Assembly (NCBI GenBank): GCA_903822825.1
Contig: CAIJQQ010000022.1
Span: 1-64,000, forward strand
Length of the DNA: 64,000 nucleotides
Origin: an uncultured Burkholderiales bacterium
GTDB taxonomy: Bacteria; Pseudomonadota; Gammaproteobacteria; Burkholderiales; Burkholderiaceae_C
Direction of reading: 5' to 3'
A program made the position numbers and the translations under genes. The first letter of the stretch is position 1. The number at the start of each line of letters is the position of its first letter. Positions 13,105-63,746 of the stretch are shown here, in pieces. Below the pieces are notes generated by a model that was given only the letters and a program-made list of their open reading frames with translations, did not search any database and was not told the DNA's origin.

Positions 13105-13180
13105 GTAGGAGCCGCGCCCTAGCGGCGATGGTGCACCTTGCTGCTGCGGCCCGATCGCGACGGGGGCGTCGCTCCCACAA
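13105..13180. repeat. REPIN-like inverted repeat, copy 1
   Basis: Begins GTAGGAGCCGCGCCC and ends GACGGGGGCGTCGCTCCCAC, with imperfectly complementary arms around a roughly 25-nt centre. It lies between the start of ubiA and the stop of oxyR. It is one of nine related elements in this window. Confidence 0.8.
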
Positions 13181-13190
13181 ACAGCCAAGG

Positions 13191-14141
13191 TCAAGAAAGC
13201 CGCGTGACACCCGGCAGTGCACAAGCGTAAATCGCGTTGCGCACGGCCGCGATCGCTTCGTAACGGGTGAAGCTGCGCCGCCACACCAGCACCACGCGGC
13301 GCGTGGGGGGCGGGCCGCCTTGCGGGTCCACCACGGGCAGGTAGCGCACGGGCGCGTCTTGCCAGCCAGACTTGGCAGGTTGCTCGGGCACCGACAAACG
13401 GGGCACCAGCGTCACCCCCATGCCCGCGGCCACCATGTGCTTGATGGTTTCGAGCGACGAGCCTTCAAAAGTCTTGCGTATGCCCTCGGCCTGGCTCGCG
13501 TAACGGGCGAACTCGGGGCACACCTCCAGCACATGGTCGCGAAAGCAATGCCCATTGCCCAGCAAGAGCATGGTCTCGTTTTTGAGTTGCTCGGTGGTGA
13601 TGGACGTCTGCGACGCCAACGCATGGTTCACAGGCAGCGCCGCCATGAACGGCTCGTCGTACAGCGGTGCGATCGCCAGGCCCGCGTCCGGAAACGGTTC
13701 GGCCAAGATGGCGCAGTCGATCTCGCCCATGCGCAGCATCTCCAGCAGGCGCACGGTGAAGTTCTCTTGCAGCATCAGCGGCATTTGTGGGATGTCCGAG
13801 ATGATCTGGCGCACCAAGTCCGGCAGCAAATAAGGGCCGATGGTGTAGATCACGCCCAGCCGCATCATGCCCGCCAACGGGTCCTTGCCGCGCTTGGCGA
13901 TTTCTTTGATTTCGGCTGCTTGTTCCAGCACGCTTTGCGCCTGCCGAACGATCTCTTGACCGAGCGGCGTCACGGTGACTTCGCCCGCCGTGCGTTCGAA
14001 CAGCTTGACCTCCAGCTCCTCTTCGAGCTTCTTGATCGCCAGTGACAGCGTGGGCTGCGACACATGGCAAGCCTCGGCGGCTTTGCCAAAGTGCTTCTCG
14101 CGGGCCACGGCCACGATGTATTTCAACTCGGTCAGGGTCAT
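13191..14141 (-). CDS. oxyR: Hydrogen-peroxide-sensing LysR regulator OxyR
   Basis: LysR-family redox sensor that activates peroxide defence genes. The 316 aa have an N-terminal winged helix-turn-helix (residues 1-60; HFGKAAEACHVSQPTLSLAIKKLE). In the regulatory domain, Cys199 and Cys208 lie in LLLGNGHCFRDHVLEVC. These are the same positions and 9-residue spacing as the E. coli OxyR disulphide pair, which distinguishes it from CysB- or BenM-type relatives. It follows recG by 4 bp on the same strand, so it is probably co-transcribed with recG. No catalase or peroxiredoxin gene is adjacent in this window. Confidence 0.93.
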   Translation of the reverse strand: MTLTELKYIVAVAREKHFGKAAEACHVSQPTLSLAIKKLEEELEVKLFERTAGEVTVTPLGQEIVRQAQSVLEQAAEIKEIAKRGKDPLAGMMRLGVIYTIGPYLLPDLVRQIISDIPQMPLMLQENFTVRLLEMLRMGEIDCAILAEPFPDAGLAIAPLYDEPFMAALPVNHALASQTSITTEQLKNETMLLLGNGHCFRDHVLEVCPEFARYASQAEGIRKTFEGSSLETIKHMVAAGMGVTLVPRLSVPEQPAKSGWQDAPVRYLPVVDPQGGPPPTRRVVLVWRRSFTRYEAIAAVRNAIYACALPGVTRLS

Positions 14142-14145
14142 TCGC

Positions 14146-16212
14146 TCACGCTTTCAGATATTCCGATTTTCCACCCAGCCAGCGGCTGACATGGCGCTCG
14201 GCCAGCGGCGGGTAGCGGTCCAACATGACCGGGGCCAGTTCGCGGGCCCATTCGAGCAAGGGCGTGTCGGTGGTCAGATCAGCAAAGCGCAGCAAAGGCG
14301 CACCCGACTGGCGGGCACCGAGGAACTCGCCCGGGCCACGGATTTCGAGGTCGCGCCGGGCAATCTCAAAGCCGTCGGTGGTCTCCACCATGGCGCGCAG
14401 GCGTTCGCGGGCCGTCTCGCCCAGGCGGCCGCTGTCGCCCGTGCCGTAGAGCAGCACACAGGCCGACGCAGCCGCACCCCGCCCGACCCGGCCGCGCAGC
14501 TGATGCAACTGGCTCAGGCCAAAGCGCTCGGCGTGCTCGATCACCATCAGCGAAGCATTGGGCACGTCCACCCCCACCTCGATCACGGTGGTGCTGACCA
14601 GCACGCCCATTTGGCCGCTGGTGAACAAATCCATCACCGCCTTCTTTTCGGCCACGGGCATGCGCGAATGCAGCAGGCCCACCATCACGCCCGGCAAGGC
14701 CTCACTCAGGTCGGCGTGGGTTTGCGTGGCGTTGGTCAGGTCCAGCGCTTCGCTTTCTTCAATCAGCGGGCACACCCAATACACCTGCCTGCCCTGCGCC
14801 AGCTGCGTTCCAATGCGCGCCACCACCTCGTCACGGCGGCTGTCTGAAATCACCCGCGTCACGATGGGCGTGCGCCCGGGTGGCAGCTCGTCGATGACCG
14901 ACACATCCAGGTCGGCGTAATAGCTCATGGCCAGCGTGCGCGGGATGGGCGTCGCGCTCATCATCAGCATGTGCGGCTCCATGCCGCCTTCTTGCATCTT
15001 GCCGCGCAAGGCCAGGCGCTGCGCCACGCCAAAGCGGTGCTGCTCGTCGATCACGGCCAGCGCCAAATTCTTGAACTTCACATGCTCCTGAATGACCGCG
15101 TGCGTGCCCACCACCAGCGCGGCTTCGCCCGACGCGATCATCTCGAGCATGGCGGTGCGTTCTTTCTTCTTTTGGCTGCCAATCAGCCAAGCCACATTGA
15201 TGCCCAAAGGCTCCAGCCAGCCCACCAGCTTGGCAAAGTGCTGGGTGGCCAAAATTTCGGTCGGCGCCATCAGAGCGCACTGCCAACCCGCGTCGATGGC
15301 CACCATGGCCGCCAGCGCCGCCACCACCGTCTTGCCTGCGCCCACATCGCCCTGCAGCAAGCGGTGCATGGGCACAGCCCGCGCCAAGTCGGCTGCGATC
15401 TCTTGCCCCACACGCTGCTGCGCCCCGGTCAGGCCAAAGGGCAGCGCCGCCAGCAACCGGTCATGCAGGTCACGGGCTTGCAGGCGCAAATGAGGCGCAC
15501 GCAAACGGTCACGTTCGCGCTTGGCCGTCAGCTGCGACAACTGCTGCGCCAGCAGCTCCTCGCACTTGAGGCGAATCCAGGCCGGGTGGCTGCGGTCTTC
15601 GAGCGCGGCCAGCGACACATCGGGCGTGGGGTGGTGCAAAAACTGCAAGGCATCACGCAGCGACCAGGTGCCACGCGGGTCTGGCCAATGGGCCTGAGGC
15701 GGCAAAGTCTCGCTCAGGTCGGCATGGTTCAAGCCGGTGATGACGGCACGGCGCAAATACGCCTGCGCCAAACCCGCCACCGTGGGGTACACAGGCGTCA
15801 GCGCCGTGGACAGCGCACCGCCCGCCGCCTTGAAATTGGGGTGCATCATGGTCAGCCCCATGAAGCCCCCACGCACCTCGCCCCGAGCGCGGATGCGGCT
15901 GCCCACCGCCAGCGCCTTCTGGTGCGAGGGGTAAAAACTGAAAAACCGCATCACGCAGGTGTCTGAACCGTCGTCCACCGTCACCAGCAACTGGCGGCGC
16001 GGGCGCATCGTGATCTCGCAAGCGGTGACCGTGGCCTCGATCTGCACCGTGTCGCCCTCGCGGGCATCGGCCAGTTTCACGATCCGGGTTTCGTCCTCGT
16101 AGCGCAGCGGCAAATGCAACGCCAAATCGATGTCACGCACCAAACCCAGCTTGCGCAGCGCTTTTTGCGGGGCGGTCAGGGTTTTGGCGGGGGACGAGGG
16201 GCTCTCGGACAT
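14146..16212 (-). CDS. recG: ATP-dependent DNA helicase RecG
   Basis: Branch-migrating helicase that remodels stalled forks and recombination intermediates. The 688 aa (E. coli 693) have an N-terminal wedge/OB region (about residues 1-250) and then superfamily 2 motifs: Walker A GDVGAGKTVVAALAA, DEQHRFG (the DExH box), MSATPIPRTLA, and motif VI QLRGRVGRG. The start MSESPSSPAK at 16212 was chosen because the upstream extension to 16311 is low-complexity Arg/Leu coding in another gene's leader. It is 28 bp after the regulator gene 16241-16654 and 4 bp before oxyR. Confidence 0.95.
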   Translation of the reverse strand: MSESPSSPAKTLTAPQKALRKLGLVRDIDLALHLPLRYEDETRIVKLADAREGDTVQIEATVTACEITMRPRRQLLVTVDDGSDTCVMRFFSFYPSHQKALAVGSRIRARGEVRGGFMGLTMMHPNFKAAGGALSTALTPVYPTVAGLAQAYLRRAVITGLNHADLSETLPPQAHWPDPRGTWSLRDALQFLHHPTPDVSLAALEDRSHPAWIRLKCEELLAQQLSQLTAKRERDRLRAPHLRLQARDLHDRLLAALPFGLTGAQQRVGQEIAADLARAVPMHRLLQGDVGAGKTVVAALAAMVAIDAGWQCALMAPTEILATQHFAKLVGWLEPLGINVAWLIGSQKKKERTAMLEMIASGEAALVVGTHAVIQEHVKFKNLALAVIDEQHRFGVAQRLALRGKMQEGGMEPHMLMMSATPIPRTLAMSYYADLDVSVIDELPPGRTPIVTRVISDSRRDEVVARIGTQLAQGRQVYWVCPLIEESEALDLTNATQTHADLSEALPGVMVGLLHSRMPVAEKKAVMDLFTSGQMGVLVSTTVIEVGVDVPNASLMVIEHAERFGLSQLHQLRGRVGRGAAASACVLLYGTGDSGRLGETARERLRAMVETTDGFEIARRDLEIRGPGEFLGARQSGAPLLRFADLTTDTPLLEWARELAPVMLDRYPPLAERHVSRWLGGKSEYLKA

Positions 16213-16240
16213 GCGCCGATTGTGCCCCGAGGCCAAAGCC

Positions 16241-16654
16241 TCAGGCGGGCTTTTTGGCGATAGCCGCAATCGACAGCGCAGTGACCACCTCGCGAACCGT
16301 CTTGCGGTCACCCACGGTCAAGGCCAGGTAGCGGTGCAGCATTTCGCGATCGGCCATGTCCAGGCGTTCAAAGTTGGCATCGGCTGCTGCGTTTTTTGAA
16401 ACAGTGCTCAAGCTGCCAAACCGCAATGCATCAGGACTGACTTGGAGCCAATCAGCCAAAACGCGGAGTTTGTCTTGCGTGGGAATCGCCTTGCCCAGCA
16501 ACCAATTGCGTGCCGTGTGGGGTGTGATACTGCGCCCCCAATAGCGCAGGTTGAACTCGTTGGCCACCACGGTAGGCGAAGCACGCACACCGCTGCCCTC
16601 CAGCGCCTGCTTGAGCCGCTGGGCAAATGCTTCTGTTTCGGTTGCGGTCGCCAT
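16241..16654 (-). CDS. XRE-like helix-turn-helix transcriptional regulator
   Basis: A 137-residue protein of unknown target. Residues about 8-70 resemble an XRE/lambda-repressor-type helix-turn-helix (FAQRLKQALEGSGVRASPTVVANEFNLRYWG, then ITPHTARNWLLGKAIPTQDKLRVLADWLQVSPDALRFG). The remainder is an acidic, helical tail (ADREMLHRYLALTVGDRKTVREVV) that may be for dimerisation. It is transcribed with recG and diverges from the lipoprotein gene across an AT-rich 122-bp gap, which it may control. The DNA-binding role is well supported; the regulon is not. Confidence 0.75.
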   Translation of the reverse strand: MATATETEAFAQRLKQALEGSGVRASPTVVANEFNLRYWGRSITPHTARNWLLGKAIPTQDKLRVLADWLQVSPDALRFGSLSTVSKNAAADANFERLDMADREMLHRYLALTVGDRKTVREVVTALSIAAIAKKPA

Positions 16655-16776
16655 CCAAGGAAAGTAGCTGGCGCCTCGAACTTCAACTTAAATGTTTATA
16701 ACCATTTCTGTTAAAGTAAATTACATTTTCAACGCAACTGAATACCTGTTCGGGATCAATCATTCAAGGAGCCCTA

Positions 16777-17460
16777 GTGAAATCCATCAAATCACTTTTC
16801 GCGATCAGCGCACTCATGACATTGGCAGCCTGCGGTGGCGGTGGCAGTTCTACAGCACCCAGCACGACAACGACTTACCCCTTGCGCAGTGGTTATCAAA
16901 GTTTGATCAGCCAAAGCGAAGTCAACAGCTTTTCAATCAGTGGAACCTGTACAGGCACAGCAACCGAAACACGCAGTGCTGCCGTCCCTGCGACATTCGA
17001 AGGCACCACTGGCGTCTCAACAACGACAACTTTGACTGGCAGCTACAGCAATTGCACGCCTGCATCCTTTGCCAGCACGGGCATCAGTTACTACGACACC
17101 AACTACAAACCCTTGGGTAGCGCGACGCCTGGTTCAGACTATGCGGTGTATTCGGTCACCGACTTGCCCATCAGTGTCAAAGTTGGGGATACAGCCCAGT
17201 TCGGCACCGCCGATGTTTATTCATCCAGCACCAAACAGGTCAAAACCGGCACCCGAACACTGAGCTACGCCGTTGAGACAGACAGTGGCAATACCGCGAT
17301 CATCAACGTGATTACGAAAGCGTACAACACGTCCAATCAATTGCTCTTCACACAACAGAGTCGGTCTCGCATCAATGCCAGCGGACAGTTCACTGCCGTT
17401 TCAAAAGACATTCAATACAGCACAACCAACACTTCACACATGCTGTGGACTAAAAACTGA
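16777..17460 (+). CDS. Small Ser/Thr-rich lipoprotein of unknown function
   Basis: A 227-residue protein with a lipoprotein signal peptide (MKSIKSLFAISALMTLAAC); Cys19 would be lipidated, followed by a GGGGSS linker. The mature part is rich in Ser, Thr, Asn and Tyr with little charge, suggesting a beta-rich surface domain. I do not recognise a family. GC content is lower than its neighbours and codons such as AAA/ACA/TCA are more frequent, which hints at later acquisition. The start is GTG or ATG near 16777 with CAAGGAG ahead. It is monocistronic: an AT-rich promoter region precedes it and a strong terminator follows. Confidence 0.75.
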   Translation: MKSIKSLFAISALMTLAACGGGGSSTAPSTTTTYPLRSGYQSLISQSEVNSFSISGTCTGTATETRSAAVPATFEGTTGVSTTTTLTGSYSNCTPASFASTGISYYDTNYKPLGSATPGSDYAVYSVTDLPISVKVGDTAQFGTADVYSSSTKQVKTGTRTLSYAVETDSGNTAIINVITKAYNTSNQLLFTQQSRSRINASGQFTAVSKDIQYSTTNTSHMLWTKN

Positions 17461-17493
17461 CAGCCTGCGAACCTTCATAGGTAAAGTCAACTC

Positions 17494-17523
17494 AAAACGG
17501 CGTGAGACAATCACGCCGTTTTT
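17494..17523 (+). terminator. Strong intrinsic terminator after the lipoprotein gene
   Basis: AAAACGGCGTGA (17494-17505) pairs perfectly with TCACGCCGTTTT (17511-17522) across a 5-nt loop, giving a 12-bp stem ending in a run of five T. It lies 34 bp after the lipoprotein stop and separates that gene from queA. It is the clearest rho-independent terminator in the window. Confidence 0.85.
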
Positions 17524-17553
17524 CATTCGCACGGGCCTGTCCAGCCCTGAACC

Positions 17554-18609
17554 ATGTCTGCATCTGCCCCCCGCGCTTTCACGCTCAGCGATTTCGACTT
17601 TGAGCTGCCCCCCGAACTGATTGCCCAGCACCCGGCTGCCCAGCGCAGCGGCTCGCGCTTGCTGGACGGCTCATCGCCCACGGTGGTGGACCGCATCTTT
17701 CACGAACTGCCTGGCCTGCTCGATGCGGGCGACCTGCTGGTCTTCAACGACACCAAGGTGGTCAAGGCCCGCATCTTTGGCGAGAAGGCCACAGGCGGCA
17801 AGCTGGAGTTGCTGATCGAGCGCGTGCTGCCTGGCCACCAGGTGGTCGCGCACATGAAGGTGAGCAAGAAGCCTTTGGTGGGCGGCAAGATGTTCATGAT
17901 GGGCGGTGCCCGCAACGGTGGTTTTGATGCCACTCTGCTGGGCCGCTGGCCCGATGCCAACGGCCAGTTGTTTCACCTGCAGCTGAGCGACGAGCCGCAT
18001 GCGCTGATGGAAAAGCACGGCCATGTGCCTTTGCCCCCCTACATCACCCACACCGACACCGTCGAAGACGCCCAGCGTTATCAGACTGTGTTTGCGCGTG
18101 CGCCCGGTGCGGTGGCGGCGCCCACGGCAGCGCTGCATTTCGACGAAGCCTTATTGGCCCAACTGGAGGCCCGTGGCGTGCAACGCGCCAGCGTCACACT
18201 GCATGTGGGGGCAGGCACCTTCCAGCCTGTCAAGACCGAGAACATTGCCGAGCACACCATGCACCGCGAGTGGTACGAGGTGCCTGAAGCCACACAGCAA
18301 GCGATTGCCGAATGCAAGTCGCGGGGCGGCAAGGTGGTGGCGGTGGGCACAACCACCGTGCGCACGCTGGAGTCGTGGGCCAAGTTCGGCCAAGCCAGCG
18401 GGGACACGCAGATTTTCATCACGCCGGGGTTTGATTTCAAAGTGGTGGACCGCCTGATCACCAACTTCCACCTGCCCAAGAGCACGCTCATGATGCTGGT
18501 GAGCGCCTTTGCGGGCTACGAGCACATCATGGGGCTGTACAGACACGCGATTGCGAGCCAGTACCGGTTCTTCAGTTATGGCGATGCGATGTTTTTGAAT
18601 CGGCGCTAA
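17554..18609 (+). CDS. queA: tRNA preQ1(34) S-adenosylmethionine ribosyltransferase-isomerase
   Basis: Queuosine pathway enzyme that transfers and isomerises the ribosyl group of S-adenosylmethionine onto preQ1 in tRNA, making epoxyqueuosine. The 351 aa begin [28 protein letters not shown]. They contain [25 protein letters not shown] and the conserved C-terminal [23 protein letters not shown]. Length and motifs agree with the family. tgt, the preceding enzyme of the pathway, is on the same strand 4 kb downstream (22644) but separated by the oxygenase and toxin-antitoxin genes. Confidence 0.96.
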
Positions 18610-18628
18610 AATAAGCTCTTTATTTAGC
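18605..18628. promoter_or_regulatory. Inverted repeat ahead of the toxin-antitoxin operon
   Basis: GCTAAA (18605-18610) and TTTAGC (18623-18628) flank an AT-rich centre, giving an imperfect palindrome of 24 bp that overlaps the queA stop and ends 18 bp before the antitoxin ATG. The position suits an autoregulatory operator of a Phd/YefM-type antitoxin. This is inferred from position and symmetry only. Confidence 0.35.
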
Positions 18629-18646
18629 ACTCATTGGAGTTTCGCA

Positions 18647-18898
18647 ATGGAAACCTTGATGACCCAACAGACGGTGAGTATGTCTGAATTCAAACGCAAT
18701 CCCGCCTCGGTGTTGCGTTCTGCCAATCGACGCCCCGTGGCCGTACTCAGTCACAACAAGGCCGCCTTCTACATGGTCGAACCTGCACTGTTTGAAGCCA
18801 TGCTAGAGCAAATGGCAGACCGTGATCTGGAAGACCTGGTCAGGTCCCGCTTAGACCAAAAAGCGCAAGCCATTTCGGTGGACATCGATACGGTTTAA
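18647..18898 (+). CDS. Phd/YefM-family antitoxin
   Basis: The 83-residue antitoxin half of a type II toxin-antitoxin pair. The N-terminal part (VSMSEFKRNPASVLRSANRRPVAVLSHNKAAFYMVEPALFEAML) is the Phd/YefM/StbD DNA-binding fold, and the acidic C terminus (DRDLEDLVRSRLDQKAQAISVDIDTV) would wrap the toxin. It precedes the toxin gene by 3 bp. The start could also be the internal ATG at codon 5. Regulation is probably autoregulation at the palindrome just upstream. Confidence 0.85.
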   Translation: METLMTQQTVSMSEFKRNPASVLRSANRRPVAVLSHNKAAFYMVEPALFEAMLEQMADRDLEDLVRSRLDQKAQAISVDIDTV

Positions 18899-18901
18899 GC
18901 G

Positions 18902-19204
18902 GTGGCTTACACCTTGAAATTCTTGCCGGAGGCTTTGGCCGAGTGGCAAGCGCTGGATGGCTCCGTCAAAGAGCCTTTGCGCAAACTGCTGAAAAAACGC
19001 CTCGAAAACCCGCACGTCCCCGGCGGCGCGTTGCATGGAGATTTACAGGGCTACTACAAGATCAAACTGCTCAAGCAAGGCGTTCGACTGGTGTACGGTG
19101 TCGAAGACGATGTCCTGATCGTCATGGTCATGGCTGTTGACCGCCGCGAAAACAGCAAGGTTTACCAATCCGCTTTAGACCGGCTGCTAGCCTCCAAGCC
19201 TTAA
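18902..19204 (+). CDS. RelE/ParE-family toxin
   Basis: The 100-residue toxin partner of the preceding antitoxin. The sequence YTLKFLPEALAEWQALDGSVKEPLRKLLKKRLENPHVPGGALHGDLQGYYKIKLLKQGVRLVYGV is typical of the RelE/StbE branch, which acts as an mRNA endonuclease on the ribosome. The basic residues and Arg/Tyr of the core are present, so it looks intact. It starts at GTG 18902, 3 bp after the antitoxin stop. Its TAA stop shares the TTAA palindrome with the stop of the ferredoxin gene on the other strand. Confidence 0.88.
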   Translation: MAYTLKFLPEALAEWQALDGSVKEPLRKLLKKRLENPHVPGGALHGDLQGYYKIKLLKQGVRLVYGVEDDVLIVMVMAVDRRENSKVYQSALDRLLASKP

Positions 19205-19509
19205 AGCTGAAGAAACACCCGCCCGCCTTCGATCTTGACCGGCCAGGTTTTGGCTGGCTCGGTTGCGGGGCCGCAGGCCACCGAACCATCGCGCAAGCTG
19301 AACTGCGCTTGGTGGAACGGGCACTCCACATGGTGGCCTTCCACAAAGCCGTCGCACAGCTTGGCGTTGCCGTGGTTGCACAGGTTGTTGATGGCGAAGA
19401 CTTCACCTTCCACGCTGAACAGCGCAATGTCTTGGCCCTCGGGGGCGACGGCAATGCCTGCGCCTTCAAACAAATCGGCCTCGGCGGCCACGTCGGTCCA
19501 TTGGGTCAT
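19201..19509 (-). CDS. Rieske-type [2Fe-2S] ferredoxin of an aromatic oxygenase system
   Basis: A small soluble electron carrier, 102 aa. The Rieske ligands are Cys44 and His46 (LCNHGNAKLC) and Cys63 and His66 (ECPFHQ), the CxH...CxxH pattern of dioxygenase ferredoxins. It would pass electrons from a reductase to the alpha subunit encoded upstream (20116-21381). It lies 130 bp downstream of the beta-subunit gene, with an interspersed repeat in the gap. No reductase gene is nearby, so a housekeeping or remote reductase must serve it. The start MTQWTDVAAE has a GAGAGTAACC ribosome-binding region. Confidence 0.88.
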   Translation of the reverse strand: MTQWTDVAAEADLFEGAGIAVAPEGQDIALFSVEGEVFAINNLCNHGNAKLCDGFVEGHHVECPFHQAQFSLRDGSVACGPATEPAKTWPVKIEGGRVFLQL

Positions 19510-19538
19510 GGTTACTCTCTCTTGAGGTGTGTGGTGAT

Positions 19539-19612
19539 GTGGGAGCCCCACCCTCGGGGCGATGGGTGGTGGTCTGCAAGGCTCTTTCGCAGCGAGGGCG
19601 CCGCTCCCACAA
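19539..19612. repeat. REPIN-like inverted repeat, copy 2
   Basis: Begins GTGGGAGCCCCACCCTCGGG and ends GAGGGCGCCGCTCCCACAA. It lies inside the oxygenase operon, between the beta-subunit stop and the ferredoxin start. A stable transcript hairpin here could protect or separate the upstream mRNA segment. Confidence 0.8.
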
Positions 19613-19639
19613 AGGGCTCCGAGAAAGCGCCATCCATTT

Positions 19640-20116
19640 TCAGATCGGGTAAATGATGGCGTTGGGGATCATTTCGCTGTCGTACACGCACAGGCGCTCG
19701 GCGAACTTGAAGCCTTCGGGGGTTTGCACGATGGTGTCGATGTAGCGGCCCACATTGAACACCGTGCTTTCTTTGTCGAGCTTGGTGCGGAACACCGCGT
19801 AGTTGGCTTCTGCGTAGATGCAGCCATCTGCCACACGGCGCACGATGGGCGCGCCCACCACATGCCGCTGGTAATAGGGGTCGTGGTACAGCGTCTCTTG
19901 GATGCCGTACACGCGGTCTTTGAGCATGCCTTTGCTGGTGAAGGACAACGTGCACAGCGGAAAGCCGCGTTCAAAATTTTCTCGCGGCTGCAGTTTGTAG
20001 ACGCACTGCTCGGTGAAAAACTCGGGCCACAGGTCCCAGTGGCCGCTGTCCACGGCGCTCGCGTAATCGGCATAGAGCTGCTGGATGCCGAACCAGGTAT
20101 TCATATCGACCATCAT
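19640..20116 (-). CDS. Aromatic ring-hydroxylating oxygenase, small (beta) subunit
   Basis: A 158-residue beta subunit, structural partner of the alpha subunit in a Rieske non-haem iron oxygenase. The sequence ([35 protein letters not shown]...[37 protein letters not shown]) fits the SnoaL-like/NTF2 fold of NagH, AndAd and related subunits. The start is the ATG at 20116, sharing one base with the alpha stop (TGATG) and preceded by GGAGG. The second ATG, three bases on, is equally possible. Length is close to salicylate-5-hydroxylase and anthranilate-dioxygenase beta subunits. Confidence 0.88.
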
Positions 20117-21381: not shown

Positions 21382-21406
21382 GGGTAGCGCTCCTCAATTC
21401 CTTTTT

Positions 21407-21480
21407 GTGGGAGCGACGCCCTCGTCGCGATCGGGCATCCGCAAATCGAAAACCTTCGCGACGGGGGCGTCGCTCCTACA
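21407..21480. repeat. REPIN-like inverted repeat, copy 3
   Basis: Begins GTGGGAGCGACGCCCTCGTC and ends GACGGGGGCGTCGCTCCTACA; the arms are almost perfectly complementary. It lies in the divergent region between the oxygenase alpha gene and the lysR gene, so it would be in the leader of the oxygenase transcript if the promoter is near the palindromes at 21507-21544. Confidence 0.82.
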
Positions 21481-21506
21481 GTGGGCGCCATCATGCGCAA
21501 AGCATT

Positions 21507-21520
21507 GATTTTCGTAAATC
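21507..21520. promoter_or_regulatory. Candidate LysR-type binding site
   Basis: GATTTTCGTAAATC contains arms GATTT and AAATC and, with the preceding T, fits the T-N11-A pattern of LysR-family operators. It is about 126 bp from the oxygenase start and 48 bp from the lysR start, the usual divergent-promoter geometry. Inferred from symmetry and position. Confidence 0.4.
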
Positions 21521-21529
21521 GAATTTCAA

Positions 21530-21544: not shown

Positions 21545-21567
21545 GAATTTCAAATACCACTCATCGC

Positions 21568-23840
<2,273 letters not shown>

Positions 23841-23878
23841 GCTGGGCGGAAACGCGCTCCTGACATGCACATCGAGCT

Positions 23879-23951
23879 GTGGGAGCCCCGCCCTCGGGGC
23901 GATTGCGTGGTCTGCGAAGGCACCTATCGCGGCGAGGGCGCCGCTCCTACA
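23879..23951. repeat. REPIN-like inverted repeat, copy 5
   Basis: Begins GTGGGAGCCCCGCCCTCGGG and ends GAGGGCGCCGCTCCTACA. The right arm (23924-23951) is also coding: it supplies the last nine codons (VGAAPSPR-stop) of the FIST gene on the minus strand. Confidence 0.82.
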
Positions 23952-38978: not shown

Positions 38979-39020
38979 GAATTGTCGGTGTGGGACTTGC
39001 CATGGGCTTTGGCGGGCATG

Positions 39021-39094
39021 GTGGGAGCCCCGCACTCGGGGCGATGGCTCTGGGTCTGCGCACGCCCTGTCGCGGCGAGGGCGCCGCTCACACA
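39021..39094. repeat. REPIN-like inverted repeat, copy 6
   Basis: Begins GTGGGAGCCCCGCACTCGGG and ends GAGGGCGCCGCTCACACAA. It lies between the aminotransferase stop and the AbrB-family gene start, both on the minus strand. Confidence 0.8.
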
Positions 39095-42317: not shown

Positions 42318-42328
42318 AGCCCCCTGCT

Positions 42329-42402
42329 GTAGGAGCGGCGCCCCCGCCGCGACAGGGCCTCAACGGCCCGCAGGCATTCGCCCCGAGGGCGGGGCTCCCA
42401 CA
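42329..42402. repeat. REPIN-like inverted repeat, copy 7
   Basis: Begins GTAGGAGCGGCGCCCCCGCC and ends GAGGGCGGGGCTCCCACA. The arms belong to the two different subtypes (GGCGCC-type left, GGGC-type right). It lies 11 bp after the lysR stop and 126 bp before glcD. Confidence 0.8.
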
Positions 42403-54865: not shown

Positions 54866-54876
54866 ACGAAAAATTT

Positions 54877-54950
54877 GTGGGAGCCCCGGCCTCGGGGCGA
54901 TGGCCCGTGCCCTTGCAGCGGCCCGTTCGCGTCGAGGGCGCCGCTCCTGT
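54877..54950. repeat. REPIN-like inverted repeat, copy 8
   Basis: Begins GTGGGAGCCCCGGCCTCGGG and ends GAGGGCGCCGCTCCTGT; the last bases differ from the consensus ACA. It lies 11 bp after the dehydrogenase stop and just before the convergent BON-domain gene's stop. Confidence 0.75.
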
Positions 54951-54962
54951 TTCAGCAGAACC

Positions 54963-56173: not shown

Positions 56174-56248
56174 GGCGCGGATGATAACCGGGCACATGTC
56201 AGCCCGCTTGACAAGCTCGGATTTTGCGCTTGGGCCTGTGCTTGCCCC

Positions 56249-57564: not shown

Positions 57565-57606
57565 GTCGGTGCGCGCTGGCAAAGCACCCAAGCCAGCCGG
57601 GCCTGG

Positions 57607-58519
57607 TCAGCGCTTGCGCAGGCCCAGGGCGACCACGGTGCCCACCACGATGGCCGCACCGGCCAGCTGCATCGGCGCGATTGACTGGCCGAGCAAAGCC
57701 CAAGCCAGCACCAAGGCAAACACCGGCTCCACGTTCATGATGGCGGAGTTGCCCACCACACCCAGCTTGGGCAAGACAGTGAACATGATGGTGAAGGCCG
57801 TGCCGTACAAGAAAGTCAGCAAGCCCAAACCCCACCAACCCAGCGCGTCCGCAGGCAGGTGAAAGCCCCCCGTCGCCACCCCCGTGAGCGAGGCCAACAC
57901 GGCCACCTGGGCCATGGTGGTGAAGGTGCGCAGGCGGCCGTCGAGGTCGCCGGCTTCATGCTGCGTCCAGACCAAGGCCAGGCCAAAGGTGGCCGAGGCC
58001 CCCCATGGCAAAGGCCACGCCAGCGCCAATTTGCCCCCAATGGGCTTGAGCGCCCAGGCCAGAGGCTGCACCCAGCACGTCCAGCGCCAAAGCCAAACCG
58101 ATCAGCATGACCGGCATGGCCAGCAGCACGGCGCGCTCGGGGCGGTGCCCATAAAGCAGGCGTGCCCAAAAGGCGGTCGACAGGGGGTAGGTGTTGAACA
58201 CCAGCAGGGCCAGTGCCACGGGCAGCCGGGCCACAGAGGAGTACAGGCAAACACTCTGCACCGCAATGAGTGCGCCGATCAAGGGGAGGAATTTCTTGTG
58301 GCGGTGTGTGAGCTTGAGAGACACCTGCTGTCGCCAGAGGATGAGGCCGACCACCAGGGCGGTGACGCCGCTGCGAAAACTGACCGCCGTGACCACGTCC
58401 ACGCCATGGTTGAACGCCAAACGTGCTGACACGTGGTTGGCGCCCATCATGAGGGCGATCAGCAAGAGGGTGATGAAAGCGGTGGCCGACAGGGCCGGGC
58501 GGGAGGGGGACTCGGTCAT
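57607..58519 (-). pseudogene. EamA/DMT-family transporter broken by a 1-base frameshift
   Basis: Two overlapping reading frames together give one ten-helix EamA-type transporter of about 303 residues. The N-terminal half begins MTESPSRPALSATAFITLLLIALMMGANHVSARLAF, and the C-terminal half ends AGAAIVVGTVVALGLRKR. They join at IGAGVAFAMG|ASATFGLALVWTQHEAG. Base 57999-58004 is a run of six C (six G in the gene); removing one G restores GVAFAMGASATFG in a single frame. It is either a true inactivated gene, phase variation at the homopolymer, or a sequencing error. It converges with rsmI. Confidence 0.82.
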
Positions 58520-58531
58520 TGAAGCAATTTA

Positions 58532-58554
58532 ACCGCCTGCCCCCTGGAGGCGGT
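58532..58554 (-). terminator. Weak hairpin after the small membrane-protein gene
   Basis: ACCGCCT and AGGCGGT form a perfect 7-bp stem with a 9-nt loop, followed on the minus strand by TAAATTGC. It lies between the 52-residue gene and the EamA gene start, so it could end the first transcript. The short AT tract makes it a weak candidate. Confidence 0.35.
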
Positions 58555-58597
58555 GACATTCTGGCGACTGGGTCGAGCCCCCCCAAGGTGTTGAGGC

Positions 58598-58756
58598 TCA
58601 GGCCTTGGCCGACTCCCGCGATTGGCTGTGCTGAAGGAACCGCTCTGTGCGGACCATCGCTTCTTCTTTTTCTTCCATTTGGATGTCGCGCACGGTTTTC
58701 AAGTACAGCGCCAAAACCACCAAAGACAACACGAAAGCAACAACAGACATCCACAT
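58598..58756 (-). CDS. Small single-pass membrane protein, 52 aa, unknown
   Basis: A short open frame read from the sequence, beginning MWMSVVAFVLSLVVLALYLK: one membrane helix (about residues 3-20), then a charged cytoplasmic-type tail (TVRDIQMEEKEEAMVRTERFLQHSQSRESAKA). The tail is amphipathic, with Glu/Met/Arg-rich helix character. I do not recognise a family. Support for coding: a membrane-anchor-plus-tail design with normal codon use, its own AT-rich upstream region with a palindrome, and a hairpin after the stop. The start could also be the second ATG (codon 3). Confidence 0.65.
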   Translation of the reverse strand: MWMSVVAFVLSLVVLALYLKTVRDIQMEEKEEAMVRTERFLQHSQSRESAKA

Positions 58757-58882
58757 GATTTTTTTCTCTGACCTCGCATTTTGCGGTGTCTATGGATGAA
58801 TTATTGCAAAAATCAGTATTACTGTCTACCAAAAAAATTTATTTAAAATCATTATTTTAGATTGTTTAACACTTCTATTGTG
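58757..58882. promoter_or_regulatory. AT-rich island with palindromes upstream of the small membrane protein
   Basis: This 126-bp gap is mostly A and T, in sharp contrast to the GC-rich surroundings. It holds CAGTA-T-TACTG (58814-58824), the hairpin TAACAC/GTGTTA (58867-58885, overlapping the stop of the upstream gene), and a run of seven A at 58831-58837. It probably combines the terminator of the ketopantoate-reductase-like gene with the promoter of the small gene. Confidence 0.5.
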
Positions 58883-59884
58883 TTATTTTTGTAGATTTTT
58901 TATGAATACCCTGGTCAAACCCATCAAAGCATCGGTAAAAGGGGTGGTCACACCGGTCATTTGGCCCAGTTCGCGCACTGCGCCCACCAAGGCATCAAGC
59001 TCGATGGGCTTTTTGGCCTGAACGTCCTGGAGCATCGAAGTCTTGAAGGCCCCCAGTTTGCGGGTCACCGCGTGGCGGTCTTCCGGGCTCTGGTCGATCG
59101 GGATGCCAATGCGCTCGCCAATGGCCTTGGCTTCGAGCATCACGCTCGAAATGAAGCCCCGCACCAGTGGGTCGTCCATGATCAGGTCGGTGGTGGCCCC
59201 GGTGATGGCACTGACCGGGTTGACAGTCATGTTGCCCCAGAGCTTGTACCAAATGTCTTTTTGAATTTGTGGCGACAGCGTGGCGTTGAAGCCCGCTTGC
59301 TTCAACAAGGCATGCAATGCCTGAGCTCTTGGAGTGGTTTGCCCAGAGGGCTCGCCCACGATCAGGCCGTCGCCAAAGTGGTGGCGGACCACACCCGGTG
59401 CATCCACAGAACAACTGGCATGCACCACGCAGCCGATGATGTTCGGCGCAGGCAAGGCCCGCGCTATGACGCCATCAGGGTCCACGCTGTTGAGCGAGCG
59501 ATCCGCCACCGGGCCCCCAAAGCCTTGCAAAAACCACCAGGGCACGCCGTTCATGGCTGTGAGCACCACGGTGTTCGGGCCGACCAGTGGCCCCACCTGC
59601 GCCGCCACCGAAGCCAGCGCAGGGGCTTTGACCGAGATCACCACCAAATCCTGCACGCCCAGTGCCGCCGCATCATTGCTGGCTACCACCGGCACGGTGT
59701 GCAGTTCACCGCCCTGGTGCATCTGCAAACCGTTAGTTTGCAGTGCGGTCAGTGTGTCACCCCGAGCCAACACGCTGAGCTGCGCGCCAGTACGTGCCAA
59801 GTGCACCCCCATCCAGCCGCCGATGGCGCCTGCGCCCACGATGGCGATCTTGTTGTATGTCATGTCTTCTTTCATTGAATTCAT
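58883..59884 (-). CDS. Ketopantoate-reductase (PanE/ApbA)-family oxidoreductase
   Basis: A 333-residue NAD(P)H-dependent reductase of the PanE/ApbA family: IAIVGAGAIGGWMGVHLARTGAQLSVLARG (Rossmann motif, about residues 11-40), DLVVISVKAPALASVAAQVGPLVGPNTVVLTAMNGVPWWF, and the catalytic-Lys region QKDIWYKLWGNMTVNPVSAITG. It is longer than true PanE (about 300) and sits with catabolic genes, so pantothenate synthesis is not certain. The start MNSMKEDMTYNK overlaps the aldolase stop by 4 bp (ATGA); MTYNK is an alternative. Confidence 0.87.
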   Translation of the reverse strand: MNSMKEDMTYNKIAIVGAGAIGGWMGVHLARTGAQLSVLARGDTLTALQTNGLQMHQGGELHTVPVVASNDAAALGVQDLVVISVKAPALASVAAQVGPLVGPNTVVLTAMNGVPWWFLQGFGGPVADRSLNSVDPDGVIARALPAPNIIGCVVHASCSVDAPGVVRHHFGDGLIVGEPSGQTTPRAQALHALLKQAGFNATLSPQIQKDIWYKLWGNMTVNPVSAITGATTDLIMDDPLVRGFISSVMLEAKAIGERIGIPIDQSPEDRHAVTRKLGAFKTSMLQDVQAKKPIELDALVGAVRELGQMTGVTTPFTDALMGLTRVFIKNLQK

Positions 59885-60675
59885 GCGCGCCACCCTCTGT
59901 CGATGCGGTCGACCTGACGCACCAGAGCGTCAAAAACGTCTTGTCCGGCGCCATGGTGGGGGTTGAATTGCAGCGCATCGCGTGTGCAGTTGGCGGCCAC
60001 CGCTTCAGGCACCGGGATCGGTTGGCCCATGCTCTGCGTGGCCAACTGGATTTCGCAGGCGCGCTGCAGTGTCCAAAGGATTGCAAAGGTCTGCGGCAGC
60101 GTCTGCCCCCAGGTCAGCAAGCCGTGGTTGCGCAGGATCACGGCGGGCTTGTTGCCGATGCTTTGCAAGACACGCGGCCCCTCTTCGGCATGGATGGTGA
60201 TGCCCTCGAAGTCGTGGTAAGCCACCATGTCGTGCAGCTGCGCCGAGTAAAAGTTGCTTTGCGAGAGGCCGTCTTTGAGGCACGCCACGGCCACGCCTGC
60301 CGTGGTGTGGGTGTGCATCACGCAGTGCGCGCCCTCAAGACCACCGTGCAACGTGGCGTGCGCCACGAAGCCGGCCGGGTTCACCTTGTAAGGCGAGCCG
60401 TCCAGCACCTCGCCTTGCAAGTTGATCTTGACCAGGTTGCTGGCGGTGACCTCGCTGTAGTGCAGGCCAAACGGGTTGATCAGAAACTGTTTCTCGCCCC
60501 TTGTGGCGCTGTCGGGCAGGCGCAACGTGATGTGGTTGTAGATCATCTCGGTCCAGCCGAGCATGGCGAACACGCGGTAGCAACTGGCCAGTTGGAGCCG
60601 CGCCTGCCATTCATCAGGGTGCATGTGCACTGGGGGGGGCACATCGGTGGGCATGGGTTTCAAAACGGCATTCAT
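59881..60675 (-). CDS. Class II aldolase/adducin family protein
   Basis: A 264-residue zinc-dependent class II aldolase or decarboxylase relative. The fold motifs are YNHITLRLP, FLINPFGLHYSEVTASNLVKINLQGE, the zinc ligands HTHTTAGVAVACLKDGL, and HGLLTWGQTLPQTFAILWTLQRACEIQL. Substrates in this family are hydroxy- or sugar-derived acids; none can be assigned. The start MNAVLKPMP at 60675 has the better family fit. It is translationally coupled to the following ketopantoate-reductase-like gene and is 29 bp after a TctC-type binding protein. Confidence 0.87.
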   Translation of the reverse strand: MNAVLKPMPTDVPPPVHMHPDEWQARLQLASCYRVFAMLGWTEMIYNHITLRLPDSATRGEKQFLINPFGLHYSEVTASNLVKINLQGEVLDGSPYKVNPAGFVAHATLHGGLEGAHCVMHTHTTAGVAVACLKDGLSQSNFYSAQLHDMVAYHDFEGITIHAEEGPRVLQSIGNKPAVILRNHGLLTWGQTLPQTFAILWTLQRACEIQLATQSMGQPIPVPEAVAANCTRDALQFNPHHGAGQDVFDALVRQVDRIDRGWRA

Positions 60676-60704
60676 GGCGCGAACTCCAAAGGTCAATCAA
60701 TAGC

Positions 60705-61694
60705 TCAAGCCTCGGCGGTGAAACCGATGGTCTTGACGATGGGCGCCCACTTGGCGGTGTCTTTGCGGATCAGCTCGGACAACTCGGCAGGCGTGCTCGA
60801 CAGGGCTTCCAAACCAAAGGTGGCCAGGCCGTCCACCACGTCCTTGGAGGCCAGGGCCACCTTGACCGCCGCGTTCAAGCGCGCCACCACCTCGGGTGCA
60901 GCCTTACCAGGCATGAAGAAGGCAAACCACTCGCTGTGCACCATGTCCTTGAGGCCTTGCTCGGCGTAGGTGGGCACATCGGGGGCAAAACGGTTGCGCT
61001 TGGCACCCGATGTGGCCAGGATGCGCACCTTGCCGGTGGGCAGGTGCTGGGTGATGTCGCCGATCGGGCCGCTCACTGCGGCGATTTGGCCGCCCAGCAG
61101 GTCCAGCATGGCCGGTTGTGTGCCACGGTAGGCCACGTGTTTGATCTCGACACCCGCATGGCGGCTCAGCAAGGCACCCACAAAGTGCGGTGTCGAGCCT
61201 GCTGCGGGTGTGCCGAAATTGGCCAATGCGGGATTGGCTTTGGCCCAGACCATGAAATCGTTGATGTTCTTGACGCTGTCGGGCACGGCCGGGCCGACCG
61301 CAAAGCCAAAATCGAACACGCAAGCGAGCGACACGGGGCTCAGATCGGTGGCCGGGTCGTAGCTCAACTTTTTGTAGATGTGCGGGTAGATCGTCAGCAT
61401 CGAGGTGGGCGTTTGCAGCATGGTCGTGCCGTCGGCGGGCTGGCTCTTGACGTATTGGATGGCGATCTGGCCACCCGCACCGGTCTTGTTTTCGACCAAT
61501 GCGGCCTTGGCGTAGGCGCCGGTCATGCGCGTGGCCACACGGCGGCAAGTGGTGTCCGAGGTGCCGCCCGGTGGAAAGCCCGTGACGATCTTGAAGCTCT
61601 CAAGTTGGGCTTGGGCCATGACCTGCTGGCCCAGCATGGCCAGCATGGCGCCAGCGCTGGTGGATTGAACGAGTTGACGACGGGAAATGCTCAT
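60705..61694 (-). CDS. TctC/Bug-family periplasmic solute-binding protein
   Basis: A 329-residue secreted binding protein. The signal peptide has a twin-arginine-like start (MSISRRQLVQSTSAGAMLAMLGQQVMAQA), so Tat export is possible. The mature part has FKIVTGFPPGGTSDTTCRRVATRMTG and VENKTGAGGQIAIQYVKSQPADGTTML, the Bug pattern. It is the third Bug protein in the window and differs from the pair at 45104-47102. Its ligand is probably an acid handled by the neighbouring aldolase genes. AAAGGAG lies close upstream of the ATG. Confidence 0.87.
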   Translation of the reverse strand: MSISRRQLVQSTSAGAMLAMLGQQVMAQAQLESFKIVTGFPPGGTSDTTCRRVATRMTGAYAKAALVENKTGAGGQIAIQYVKSQPADGTTMLQTPTSMLTIYPHIYKKLSYDPATDLSPVSLACVFDFGFAVGPAVPDSVKNINDFMVWAKANPALANFGTPAAGSTPHFVGALLSRHAGVEIKHVAYRGTQPAMLDLLGGQIAAVSGPIGDITQHLPTGKVRILATSGAKRNRFAPDVPTYAEQGLKDMVHSEWFAFFMPGKAAPEVVARLNAAVKVALASKDVVDGLATFGLEALSSTPAELSELIRKDTAKWAPIVKTIGFTAEA

Positions 61695-61744
61695 GGAAGT
61701 CTCCTTTTTGAAGTTAAAACACACGCACAAAATCAAGATTCATC

Positions 61745-61798
61745 GCGCAGCCAATGGACTGCGCCTGAAGGGTGACCGCCCCCTGATGGCTGGGGCGG
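61745..61798 (-). other. Two hairpins between hpaI and the TctC gene
   Basis: GCGCAG/CTGCGC (61745-61764) and CCGCCCC/GGGGCGG (61776-61798) are two consecutive perfect stems in the 197-bp gap. Neither is followed by a T-run. They may terminate or attenuate the hpa transcript before the TctC-aldolase genes. Confidence 0.3.
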
Positions 61799-61891
61799 AC
61801 TGTCAAAGCATACTTCTCCAGCAGGCCGCCGCGTGGCGCCCGAAAATCGCCCATCGTTCAGTAAGGCCACCGTGTCGCCCATGCCAGGTCC

Positions 61892-62704
61892 TCAGTAGGT
61901 CTGGCCGGGGGTGGCTGCAGGCAGCACCACTTGCTTGAAGTGGGCGGCCAGGTCGGCGGTCTGGCGCATCAGGATTTGCGTGTCCAGACCCACGGCGACG
62001 AACACTGCACCCATCTGCAGGTACTGCGCGGCCAATTGCCGGTCAGGCGTGAGGATGCCAGGGGCCTTGCCAGCCTTGAGGATGCGGGCAATGGCGTCGG
62101 CAATCGCTGCCTGCACCTCTGGATGCGCAGCATTGCCCACATGGCCCATGCTGGCCGACAGGTCGGCCGGACCGATGAAGACGCCGTCCACGCCCGGGGT
62201 CGCAGCGATCGCGTCGAGGTTTTTCAGCGCTTCAAGCGACTCGACCTGCACCAGCAGACACACCTCTTCGTTGGCGCGCTTGAAGTAATCGGTGTAGTGG
62301 CCCCAGCGCGAAGCACGCGCCCCGGCCATGCCCCGAACACCGCCCTGCCCGTCATCTTGCGGATAGCGCATGGCTTGCACCAGCTGCGCGGCCTGCTCGG
62401 CGGTGTCGACCATGGGCACCAGGATGTTTTGCGCGCCAAGGTCCAGGTACTGCTTGATGAGCGCCGTTTCACCCACGGGCACGCGGCACACCGCGTGGCT
62501 GCCCGGGTAAGCGGCGAGCGTCTTGAGCTGGGCGATGATGCTGCTCAGGTTGTTGGGTGAATGCTCGCCGTCGATGACCAGCCAGTCGAATCCGGCCAGG
62601 GCACAAATTTCGGCGCTGTAGTCGCTGGCCAGGCCCATCCACAGGCCAATCTGGGGGCGTTTGTTTTTGAGGGCTTGTTTGAACAAGTTGCTTGGGGTTT
62701 GCAT
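61892..62704 (-). CDS. hpaI: 4-hydroxy-2-oxo-heptane-1,7-dioate aldolase (HpcH/HpaI family)
   Basis: Class II metal-dependent aldolase cleaving 4-hydroxy-2-oxoheptanedioate to pyruvate and succinate semialdehyde, the last step of homoprotocatechuate degradation. The 270 aa contain IGLWMGLASDYSAEICALAGFDWLVIDGEHSPNNL, QNILVPMVDTAEQAAQLVQAMRYP, VQVESLEALKNLDAIAATPGVDGVFIGPADLSASMG and GKAPGILTPD, matching HpaI. The start MQTPSNLFKQ follows TTCC-rich leader at 62704; a longer reading adds eight residues. It follows hpaH by 142 bp. Confidence 0.9.
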   Translation of the reverse strand: MQTPSNLFKQALKNKRPQIGLWMGLASDYSAEICALAGFDWLVIDGEHSPNNLSSIIAQLKTLAAYPGSHAVCRVPVGETALIKQYLDLGAQNILVPMVDTAEQAAQLVQAMRYPQDDGQGGVRGMAGARASRWGHYTDYFKRANEEVCLLVQVESLEALKNLDAIAATPGVDGVFIGPADLSASMGHVGNAAHPEVQAAIADAIARILKAGKAPGILTPDRQLAAQYLQMGAVFVAVGLDTQILMRQTADLAAHFKQVVLPAATPGQTY

Positions 62705-62846
62705 GATGGTTCCTTGTGTGTGCATTCGATGGGGATGCTGTTCGGTTCGGGCGGGCCTGCCCGGGCTCAGAGGCGCTTAGCTTTGCCACATCGCCCAGCC
62801 AGGCCCGCCAGACCCGACCAGCGTGGGTGTGCGAAGCGTCCTGGTG

Positions 62847-63662
62847 TCAAATGAATCTGAACTCCAACTTGCCCAGCGGACCATAGTCTGCGTCAAACAC
62901 ATCACCCACTTTGGCAAGAGCCGGTTTGGTGAACGAGCCAGCAAGAACAATTTCGCCTGCCTGCAAATGCTCACCCCAAGGCGCGAGCTTGTTGGCCAGC
63001 CAGGCGATGCCCACGGCCGGATGCCCTTGCACACCCGCCGCGAGGCCCGTTTCTTCGACCACGCCGTTCTGGCGCAGGATGGCCCCGCACCAAGGCAGGT
63101 CGGTGGTCAACGGATCGACCCGCTCGGCACCCAACACAATGCCCGCGTTGGCGGCGTTGTCGCTGATGGTGTCGAACACCCGGCGCATCACTTTGGTGTG
63201 GCGGTCGAACTGCTCGATGCGCGAATCGATGATCTCGATGGCGGGCGTCACATGCTCGGTGGCGTCCAGCACCTGCTCCACCGTCACGTTGGGGCCACGC
63301 AGTTCTTTTTTGAGGATGAAGGCCAGCTCCACTTCTACACGGGGCGCGATGAAATGGGCGTGTGGAATGTCAAGCACCTGGCCGGGGGTGCAGTTGTAGC
63401 GCATGTTGTCCAGCAGCGTGCCGTAGTCGGGCTCGTCGATCTGACTCGAGACCTGCATGGCGCGGCTGGTGAGGCCAATCTTGTGGCCAATCATGGTGCG
63501 CCCCTCGGCGAACTTGATCCGCATCCAGGCGCGGTTGATGCGGTAGCCGTCTTCGATCGTCATGCCCGGGAAGCGCTTGGAAAAGTGCTCGATCTGGGTG
63601 CGGGATTTTTCGGATTGGTTGAGCTCGTGCGCGAGCTGCTGGATCAATGCGTCGTCAAACAT
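62847..63662 (-). CDS. hpaH: 2-oxo-hept-4-ene-1,7-dioate hydratase
   Basis: Hydrates 2-oxohept-4-ene-1,7-dioate to the 4-hydroxy compound, the step before HpaI. The 271 aa resemble the FAH-fold hydratase group: [83 protein letters not shown], and [47 protein letters not shown]. The start [14 protein letters not shown] at 63662 is the family N terminus; the frame is open upstream through an interspersed repeat but that is not coding-like. Downstream of hpaF by 101 bp. Confidence 0.9.
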
Positions 63663-63671
63663 GGTGTTCCT

Positions 63672-63746
63672 GTAGGAGCGGCGCCCTCGCCGCGATGGTT
63701 TCAGGGGTGTTGAGAGGGTCATCGCCGCGAGGGCGCGGCTCTCACA
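63672..63746. repeat. REPIN-like inverted repeat, copy 9
   Basis: Begins GTAGGAGCGGCGCCCTCGCC and ends GAGGGCGCGGCTCTCACA. It lies between hpaF and hpaH, inside what is functionally one pathway operon, 9 bp before the hpaH start codon on the minus strand, so it would form a hairpin right at the hpaH ribosome-binding region. Confidence 0.82.

Follow-up and report, generated by a model that had tools for sequence, protein, structure and literature searches.

The window analysed here is a 64-kb stretch of DNA (positions 1 to 64,000 of contig CAIJQQ010000022.1; G000:C22:1-64000) from an uncultured Burkholderiales bacterium, and it contains nine dispersed inverted repeats of one family. Each is composed of two repetitive extragenic palindromic (REP) sequences in inverted orientation, an arrangement known as a REP doublet forming hairpin (REPIN). 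The assembly to which the window belongs (G000) is a metagenome-assembled genome (MAG) of 2,917,918 bases in 66 contigs, rated 89.1% complete. The host is probably a member of the freshwater genus Limnohabitans, as suggested by the names of same-genus relatives, which include the Comamonadaceae MAG JR-MC-C-240519-69 (G096), Limnohabitans sp. Jir72 (G057), and Limnohabitans sp. DM1 (G046). G096 is the nearest relative seen, showing 92-96% identity in one part of the window (long matched segments) and 88-91% in another.

The nine repeats and their surroundings

The motif GTRGGAGC has 15 occurrences in the window, where 100 dinucleotide shuffles lead one to expect 3.9 (largest 8), and the paired pattern GGAGC-N48-66-GCTCC has seven, against 2.5 expected (largest 6). 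The direct or inverted repeat families reported by a repeat finder for the window recover all nine copies. With arm mismatches allowed, every copy proves to be two REPs in inverted orientation that together span 74-76 bp when the terminal T and A are counted. This bears out the nine-copy inverted repeat family of the original prediction, made from the window alone. Each arm is built of the tag TGTRG, the dinucleotide GA, a 6-bp stem (GCxxxG/CyyyGC) whose loop reads CCCT or CCCC, and then mostly GAT. The resulting consensus is TGTRGGAGC-NNN-GCCCYC-NNN-GCGAT, in which the two NNN triplets are mutually complementary. The tags point outward and lie 71-73 nt apart, and a spacer of 12-30 nt separates the arms.

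The arms fall into four main stem subtypes, not two as first proposed. The mixing of subtypes noted earlier for copy 7 is real, but it is not special to that copy, as eight of the nine copies are heterodimers. Copies 2, 5, 6, 7, and 8 pair a CCC stem with a GGC-type stem (GGC/GCT in copy 2 and GGC/GAC in copy 8; in the order GGC + CCC in copy 7), copies 4 and 9 combine GGC with CGC, and copy 1 combines CGC with GAC. The sole homodimer is copy 3 (GAC + GAC). Degenerate arms are present in copy 6 (tag GTGTGAGC), copy 9 (tag GTGAGAGC), and copy 8, whose right end reads CTCCTGTT. Each of the nine copies is predicted to fold into a long hairpin-like structure (-36 to -56 kcal/mol with RNA parameters). 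By the same parameters, folding is weaker in the eight heterodimers, at -36 to -50 kcal/mol, than in the one homodimer (-56 kcal/mol), while the separately folded arms total -17 to -25 kcal/mol.

Most of the REPINs, to which no strand is assigned, are located between genes. REPIN 1 (13104..13179) has a UbiA-family gene (12225-13079, -) on one side and a LysR gene (13191-14141, -) on the other, and REPIN 2 (19538..19611) is found between Rieske-domain and ring-hydroxylase beta-subunit genes, both on the - strand. REPIN 3 (21406..21480) lies between the divergent ring-hydroxylase alpha (-) and LysR (+) genes, and REPIN 4 (22526..22600) between LysR (+) and tgt (22644-23840, +), with a degenerate single unpaired REP (22607..22633, -) adjoining it. 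REPIN 6 (39020..39094) separates AbrB-family and class-III aminotransferase genes (both -), REPIN 7 (42328..42402) separates LysR and FAD-oxidase genes (both +), REPIN 8 (54876..54951) is placed between convergent NAD-binding dehydrogenase and BON-domain genes, and REPIN 9 (63671..63746) between two - strand genes. These eight copies are intergenic, given later possible starts for the open reading frames (ORFs) adjoining copies 2, 6, and 9; the genes around them are on the same strand in six cases, convergent in one (copy 8), and divergent in one (copy 3). The earlier statement that the copies fall between genes holds for these eight and fails for REPIN 5 (23878..23951). This copy sits between the convergent tgt and FIST-domain genes and is partly coding, overlapping the 3' end of the latter, whose last eight codons and stop it contains. 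The end of the FIST-domain gene was rewritten by the repeat (window 23924-23951), which supplies the final eight residues and the stop. Elsewhere in the window, two short neighbouring ORFs (18647-19204) resemble an antitoxin-toxin pair by eye.

REPIN sites in relatives and the population in the genus

The nine sites were compared in six to nine relatives each, in which both flanks are present. Of the 72 comparisons, eight show a REPIN of the family: six in G096 (sites 1, 2, 3, 6, 7, and 9), a degenerate one in G013 (site 7), and one in G004 (site 9). Apart from these, the sites of REPINs 1 and 2 lack a family REPIN in 8/8 relatives each, that of REPIN 3 in 7/7, that of REPIN 6 in 6/6, that of REPIN 7 in 4/4, and that of REPIN 9 in 6/6, another REPIN type being present in one relative at each of the last two. 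Site 4 is without one in 8/8 relatives including G096, which shares a 9-bp junction with G013, and so is site 8 in 8/8, again including G096. Site 5, uncovered in G096, has no family REPIN in any of the nine relatives with both flanks. The original prediction had named conservation of each copy at the same place across distant genera as the mark of a fixed structure; such conservation fails even within the genus.

The unoccupied sites are bare or hold different sequence, some with other REP-like repeats. The loci of four inserts in other relatives contain no family REP; long inserts without one occupy site 4 in G004 and site 5 in G013 and G046. Some gaps that hold window REPINs hold other REP-like repeats in L117 (G004), L116 (G021), L136 (G015), and L152 (G041), including GTAGGTCGG types, as though the same gaps get reused by the repeats of other species. 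At the site of REPIN 8 (54866-54962), six of eight relatives show, by eye, a terminator-like hairpin followed by a T-run. No terminator was called there in the window's genome, where the REPIN stands in the hairpin's place.

A strict REP pattern, which covers only the stem and loop class of the window (other stems occur in other members of the genus), matches 140 arms in the 2.92 Mb of G000, corresponding to a population of about 70 elements, while the reversed control pattern gives none. The doubt that copies might be few elsewhere in the genome is thereby removed. In the window and 31 fetched G000 stretches (L002-L032), mostly picked at REPIN-like places among the matches listed, 42 paired REPINs with outward tags were collected, representing part of the population. 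Their commonest fully complementary stems are GGC (31 arms), CCC (24), CGC (12), and GAC (7). Stem triplets are complementary in 75 of 84 arms, against a shuffled mean of 22.8 (maximum 39 in 5000). Moreover, the two arms of a REPIN tend to differ: identical stem types occur in 3 of the 42, against 10.0 expected from shuffled stem labels (P = 0.0023), whereas CCC is paired with GGC in 19, against 9.0 expected (0 of 20,000 shuffles as high). In contrast to the dispersed copies, near-identical REPINs stand in tandem at L008 1481-1680 (G000:C3; two and a further arm) and at L032 1534-1696 (G000:C47; two).

The strict pattern matches 35 of 90 genomes of the genus, with 1 to 1053 matches each, and 55 genomes have none; the reversed control again gives 0. 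The highest numbers are found in G051 (1053), G073 (542), G082 (269), G096 (141), G000 (140), and G052 (133). The family therefore combines inverted REPs at near-constant spacing, high dispersed copy number, compensated stems, and polymorphic sites, the features by which REPINs are recognized. In addition, the GTRG tag, the GA dinucleotide, the stem, and mostly GAT agree, by our reading, with the GTAG-1 class of REPs (Di Nocera 2013, PMC3733652). The proposed REPIN identity thus stands, on the 140 arms genome-wide, the patchy sites, and the transposase gene within the same repeats in sister genomes described below. The nine repeats are ordinary REPINs; what is new is the host genus, the kind being already known.

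RAYT genes of the genus and the RAYT-less locus in G000

REPINs are presumably spread within bacterial genomes by a single-copy REP-associated tyrosine transposase (RAYT) of the HUH/Y1 type, and the NF047646 matches in the genus form three groups by score and flanks. Group (i) scores about 69-85 bits, has mostly 233-258 aa, is nearly always single copy, and carries GGGGTCAGAT-type flanks at the loci inspected. It is the only group present in G000, where the gene at G000:C63:12303-12689 (L001) is the sole PF01797/NF047646 match of the assembly. The surrounding 3.3 kb contain no GTRGGAGC and show GGGGTCAGAT terminal repeats instead. With terminal inverted repeats (TIRs) containing GGGGWSAS and no GTAG REP, this Y1 gene corresponds to a TIR-flanked Y1 transposase (TIRYT) as defined in PMC3733652, a class that suits group (i) in general. 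A single-copy TIR-flanked Y1 transposase with GGGGTCAGATCCCAATTAA repeats is seen at G000:C63 and in most of the genus, and a repeat similar to GGGGTCAGATCCCAATTAA adjoins a REPIN at L018.

Group (ii) scores about 170-182 bits. The repeat GTAGGTCGG is found beside the gene at 14/14 loci examined, on both sides in 13, and window-family REPs are absent beside all 14. Group (ii) and GTAGGTCGG appear as a second REP/RAYT pair in the genus (L066, L067, L073-L082, L101, and L106).

Group (iii) comprises short RAYTs of about 99-152 bits, present in 24 of the 90 genomes by hand count; 27 of its 28 loci were examined, all but G017:C96. The RAYT of G096 scores 151 bits against an NF047646 cut-off of 80, and it contains PDHLHW and RYVVANPVR, read by eye, which we take to be the HUH and tyrosine motifs. 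In G096 (L083), G046 (L098), and G057 (L102), the RAYT lies among CCC + GGC REPINs with a spacing of 72, the commonest arm pair of the window. The flanking pair is mainly CCC with GAC in G099, G050, G051, and G073, the remaining short RAYTs have other pairs or homodimers, and no convincing REP was recognized beside four of them (L087-L090). In the RAYT tree, the seven CCC-flanked genes form one clade (92/95), inside which three with CCC + GAC flanks (G099, G051, and G073) group together (97/93). The first listed REP at the 3' end of the gene is CCC in five of the seven (L083, L085, L094, L098, and L102), and in three (L083, L085, and L102) the REP closest to the 5' end is of GGC or GAC type and faces the CCC REP; L099 and L100 depart from the CCC-at-3'-end arrangement. 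The G096 RAYT occupies the spacer position of a REPIN, and two inverted REPs around a RAYT are the unit described in the available part of Nunvar 2010 (PMC2817692).

Two further searches were unproductive. A cluster of five GGC-type REPs in another genus (G037:C41) was rejected as a RAYT locus, as its contig is without a Y1 match, and a scan of viral contigs with one window protein found nothing.

The RAYT locus of the sister genome can be followed into G000. The 12.8-kb RAYT contig of G096 aligns to G000:C56 on either side of the gene with 83-92% identity. What lies between the aligned flanks in G000 is a truncated CCC REP and a single CCC + GGC REPIN, with no RAYT; both flanks are on one unbroken contig of 79.6 kb. 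Among 18 further genomes in which the locus was sought, the RAYT is present in three (G046, G057, and G050, the last in two frames). Other inserts occupy the locus in three (G004, G013, and G048, of which G048 has a REPIN-like remnant), a single flank was found in three (G014, G018, and G099), and the locus was not found in four (G015, G021, G052, and G082). The CCC-family RAYT of G050 (G050:C9:42049-42378, L094), split over two frames, apparently represents another way in which RAYTs have decayed in this genus.

CCC-clade RAYTs are confined to REP-rich genomes. They occur in 7 of 16 genomes with at least 10 REPs and in 0 of 74 with fewer than 10 (Fisher P = 1.5e-6, from hand counts and with the cut-off of 10 set after the counts were seen). 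For all short-subclass RAYTs, the corresponding numbers are 10/16 REP-rich and 14/74 REP-poor genomes (P = 0.0009). Counting every NF047646 match of at least 99 bits as a RAYT (12/16 vs 15/74, P = 5e-5) was rejected, because this count mixes two systems: the 170-182 bit subclass adjoins GTAGGTCGG and has no window-family REP.

Taken together, the REPIN family was very probably copied by a RAYT of the CCC clade that has since been lost from G000, so that the population is now an orphan. The original prediction placed the mobilising RAYT elsewhere in the genome; no such gene was found in G000, whose only Y1 match is of another class and where the locus used by relatives holds no RAYT. The search for a RAYT flanked by the same repeat succeeded in G096, G046, and G057, and its failure in the G000 assembly is best explained by loss. 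Loss in G000, leaving an orphan REPIN population, is the likeliest event, and it is the simplest reading because no two genomes seen are closer than G000 and G096. For E. coli, PMC3733652 states that REPtrons are lost by deletion. The RAYT would have copied the REPINs in trans on single-stranded DNA, each arm being read as a tagged hairpin. Recombination between the REPINs flanking the gene would then have deleted it in the G000 lineage, and the orphan population may have been kept by inertia, by arm constraint, or by both.

Several observations weigh against this reading. Nine of the 16 REP-rich genomes (G000, G004, G013, G015, G048, G052, G056, G067, and G082) have no CCC-clade RAYT, including G082 (269 REPs) and G052 (133), in which the repeats are abundant, and G013, G048, and G056, which are rated 100% complete. 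REPs without a matching RAYT are therefore common in the genus, and G000 is one case. At the shared locus, two of the 18 genomes (G051 and G073) have REPINs without a RAYT, and three (G011, G023, and G041) have a bare 43-bp junction. A gain of the RAYT in other lineages is possible, though less parsimonious than loss. In addition, the gene could possibly lie in the missing portion of the MAG, or a REPIN-RAYT-REPIN array may have collapsed in this assembly of 66 contigs.

Retention of the RAYT in the genome, hidden by a gap or a collapse of the MAG, is the strongest rival and is in our view unlikely. The incompleteness of the assembly leaves room for it, tandem REPINs often wrap RAYT loci and can break assemblies (one G000 contig starts at a REPIN, L024), and REPIN copies 4 and 8 look as if they were gained after the split from G096. 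Against this, the RAYT locus of G096, G046, G057, and G050 is contained in G000, together with both flanks, in the single 79.6-kb contig and has no RAYT there, and the complete genomes G013 (38 REPs) and G048 (62 REPs) likewise have no CCC-clade RAYT.

Movement of the REPINs by the C63 TIRYT is very improbable. The assembly has no other Y1_Tnp, and this one recurs as a single copy through most of the genus, but it was rejected as the cognate RAYT for its wrong flanks, GGGGTCAGAT-type repeats and not GTAG REPs, and it is also present in genomes with no family REP match (G001, G006, G011, G012, G014, and G018). Equally implausible is a reading of the repeats as conserved structured RNAs or terminators and not as mobile DNA: the strong predicted hairpins, the intergenic position of eight copies, the conserved arms at shared sites, and the terminator-like hairpin of relatives at copy 8 speak for it, but it was rejected on the empty sites (8/72 occupied) and an Rfam search of the window that gave no family match, besides which no terminator was called at copy 8 and copies are found between same-strand, convergent, and divergent genes alike.

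Arm conservation and relation to known systems

Both flanks of 25 of the 42 G000 REPINs are present in fetched G096 stretches, and 18 of these REPINs are shared (at least 42 of 52 arm bases kept) while seven are absent or partial, a ratio that overstates sharing, as the G096 stretches were mostly fetched for holding a REPIN. In the shared REPINs, the arms differ at 32/934 positions (3.4%) and the spacers at 53/416 (12.7%; Fisher P = 6e-10 on positions), so that the arms differ 3.7 times less than their own spacers, although the choice of G000 copies by a near-consensus arm pattern biases toward low arm divergence. The aligned flanks, coding sequence included, differ by 8.4%. Taken site by site, the arms have changed less than the spacers in 14 cases and more in 4 (Wilcoxon P = 0.004). 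Departures from the arm consensus number 14 in G000 and 11 in G096, with 7 neutral swaps; those found only in G096, which are free of the pattern choice, amount to 11/934, plus 7 allowed R/Y swaps that cannot be assigned to either genome. Five of the seven dropped sites retain part of the REPIN in G096, and arms are therefore also lost by deletion.

The RAYT-less genome thus shows no excess arm decay. As arm departures are about equal in G000 and G096, either the RAYT disappeared recently or something else preserves the arms. Transposition alone leaves the slow arms at shared REPINs unexplained; conversion between copies, low mutation in GC-rich stems, or the pattern-based choice of copies may be their cause. 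A further proposal, tentative and on balance doubtful, is that one RAYT lineage recognizes the two unlike arms separately, as a fixed left end and a fixed right end, and that the arms are now held by the host through selection or conversion on immobile copies.

The Limnohabitans repeats resemble the REPINs of Pseudomonas fluorescens SBW25 (Bertels and Rainey 2011, PMC3116915) in their conserved arms, variable spacer, long predicted hairpin, and extragenic position, as well as in some tandem clusters, REPIN clusters beside RAYTs, and a defined spacing (71-73 between tags here). They differ in the betaproteobacterial host, in having mostly two different stem types, and in that a RAYT was not found in the assembly. 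With the GTAG-1 REPs and REPtrons of Di Nocera 2013 (PMC3733652), they share the GTRG tag, the dinucleotide before the stem, the short stem-loop, and head-to-head dimers; heterodimers and REPtron loss are described there as well. That paper covers Thauera; six other betaproteobacterial terms have no match in its main text, and Limnohabitans does not appear in the part available. The RAYT-REP units of Nunvar 2010 (PMC2817692) are similar in the RAYT lying within two inverted REPs, the co-evolution of arm and RAYT, and the fixed chromosomal place. That report finds a Pseudomonas-like RAYT in Thauera and in no other betaproteobacterium, unlike the short-class RAYTs in 24/90 genomes of one betaproteobacterial genus here. 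As in RAYT-less E. coli (Park 2021, PMC8049555), the REPIN population outlasts the transposase gene, but here the former RAYT locus can be recognized by its REPIN scar, with the sister locus still intact for comparison.

Enzymes from E. coli, Stenotrophomonas, and Marinomonas recognize single-stranded REPs by the hairpin and its GTAG tag, with cleavage at CT or CA (PMC8266576), and by analogy the Limnohabitans RAYT may act in the same way. REPINs, heterodimeric GTAG REPs, RAYT-REP co-evolution, and RAYT-less REPIN genomes are thus already known from the accessible text of PMC3116915, PMC3733652, PMC2817692, and PMC8049555. No literature on Limnohabitans REPs or RAYTs was found among the matches listed, the co-mentions being unrelated by title.

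At stake is whether REPINs persist through ongoing copying by a transposase or through a benefit to the host. According to the part of PMC8049555 available, the model of REPIN persistence needs a host benefit, and there is little evidence of what that benefit is. If the arms are indeed held by the host, REPIN arms would be host-domesticated sites, beyond transposase substrates, and this would also account for the 9/16 REP-rich genomes without a matching-clade RAYT. A genus of 90 genomes with 0 to more than 1000 REPs, with and without RAYT, and with REPINs shared by descent could separate the two modes of persistence, by counting arm and spacer changes per branch.
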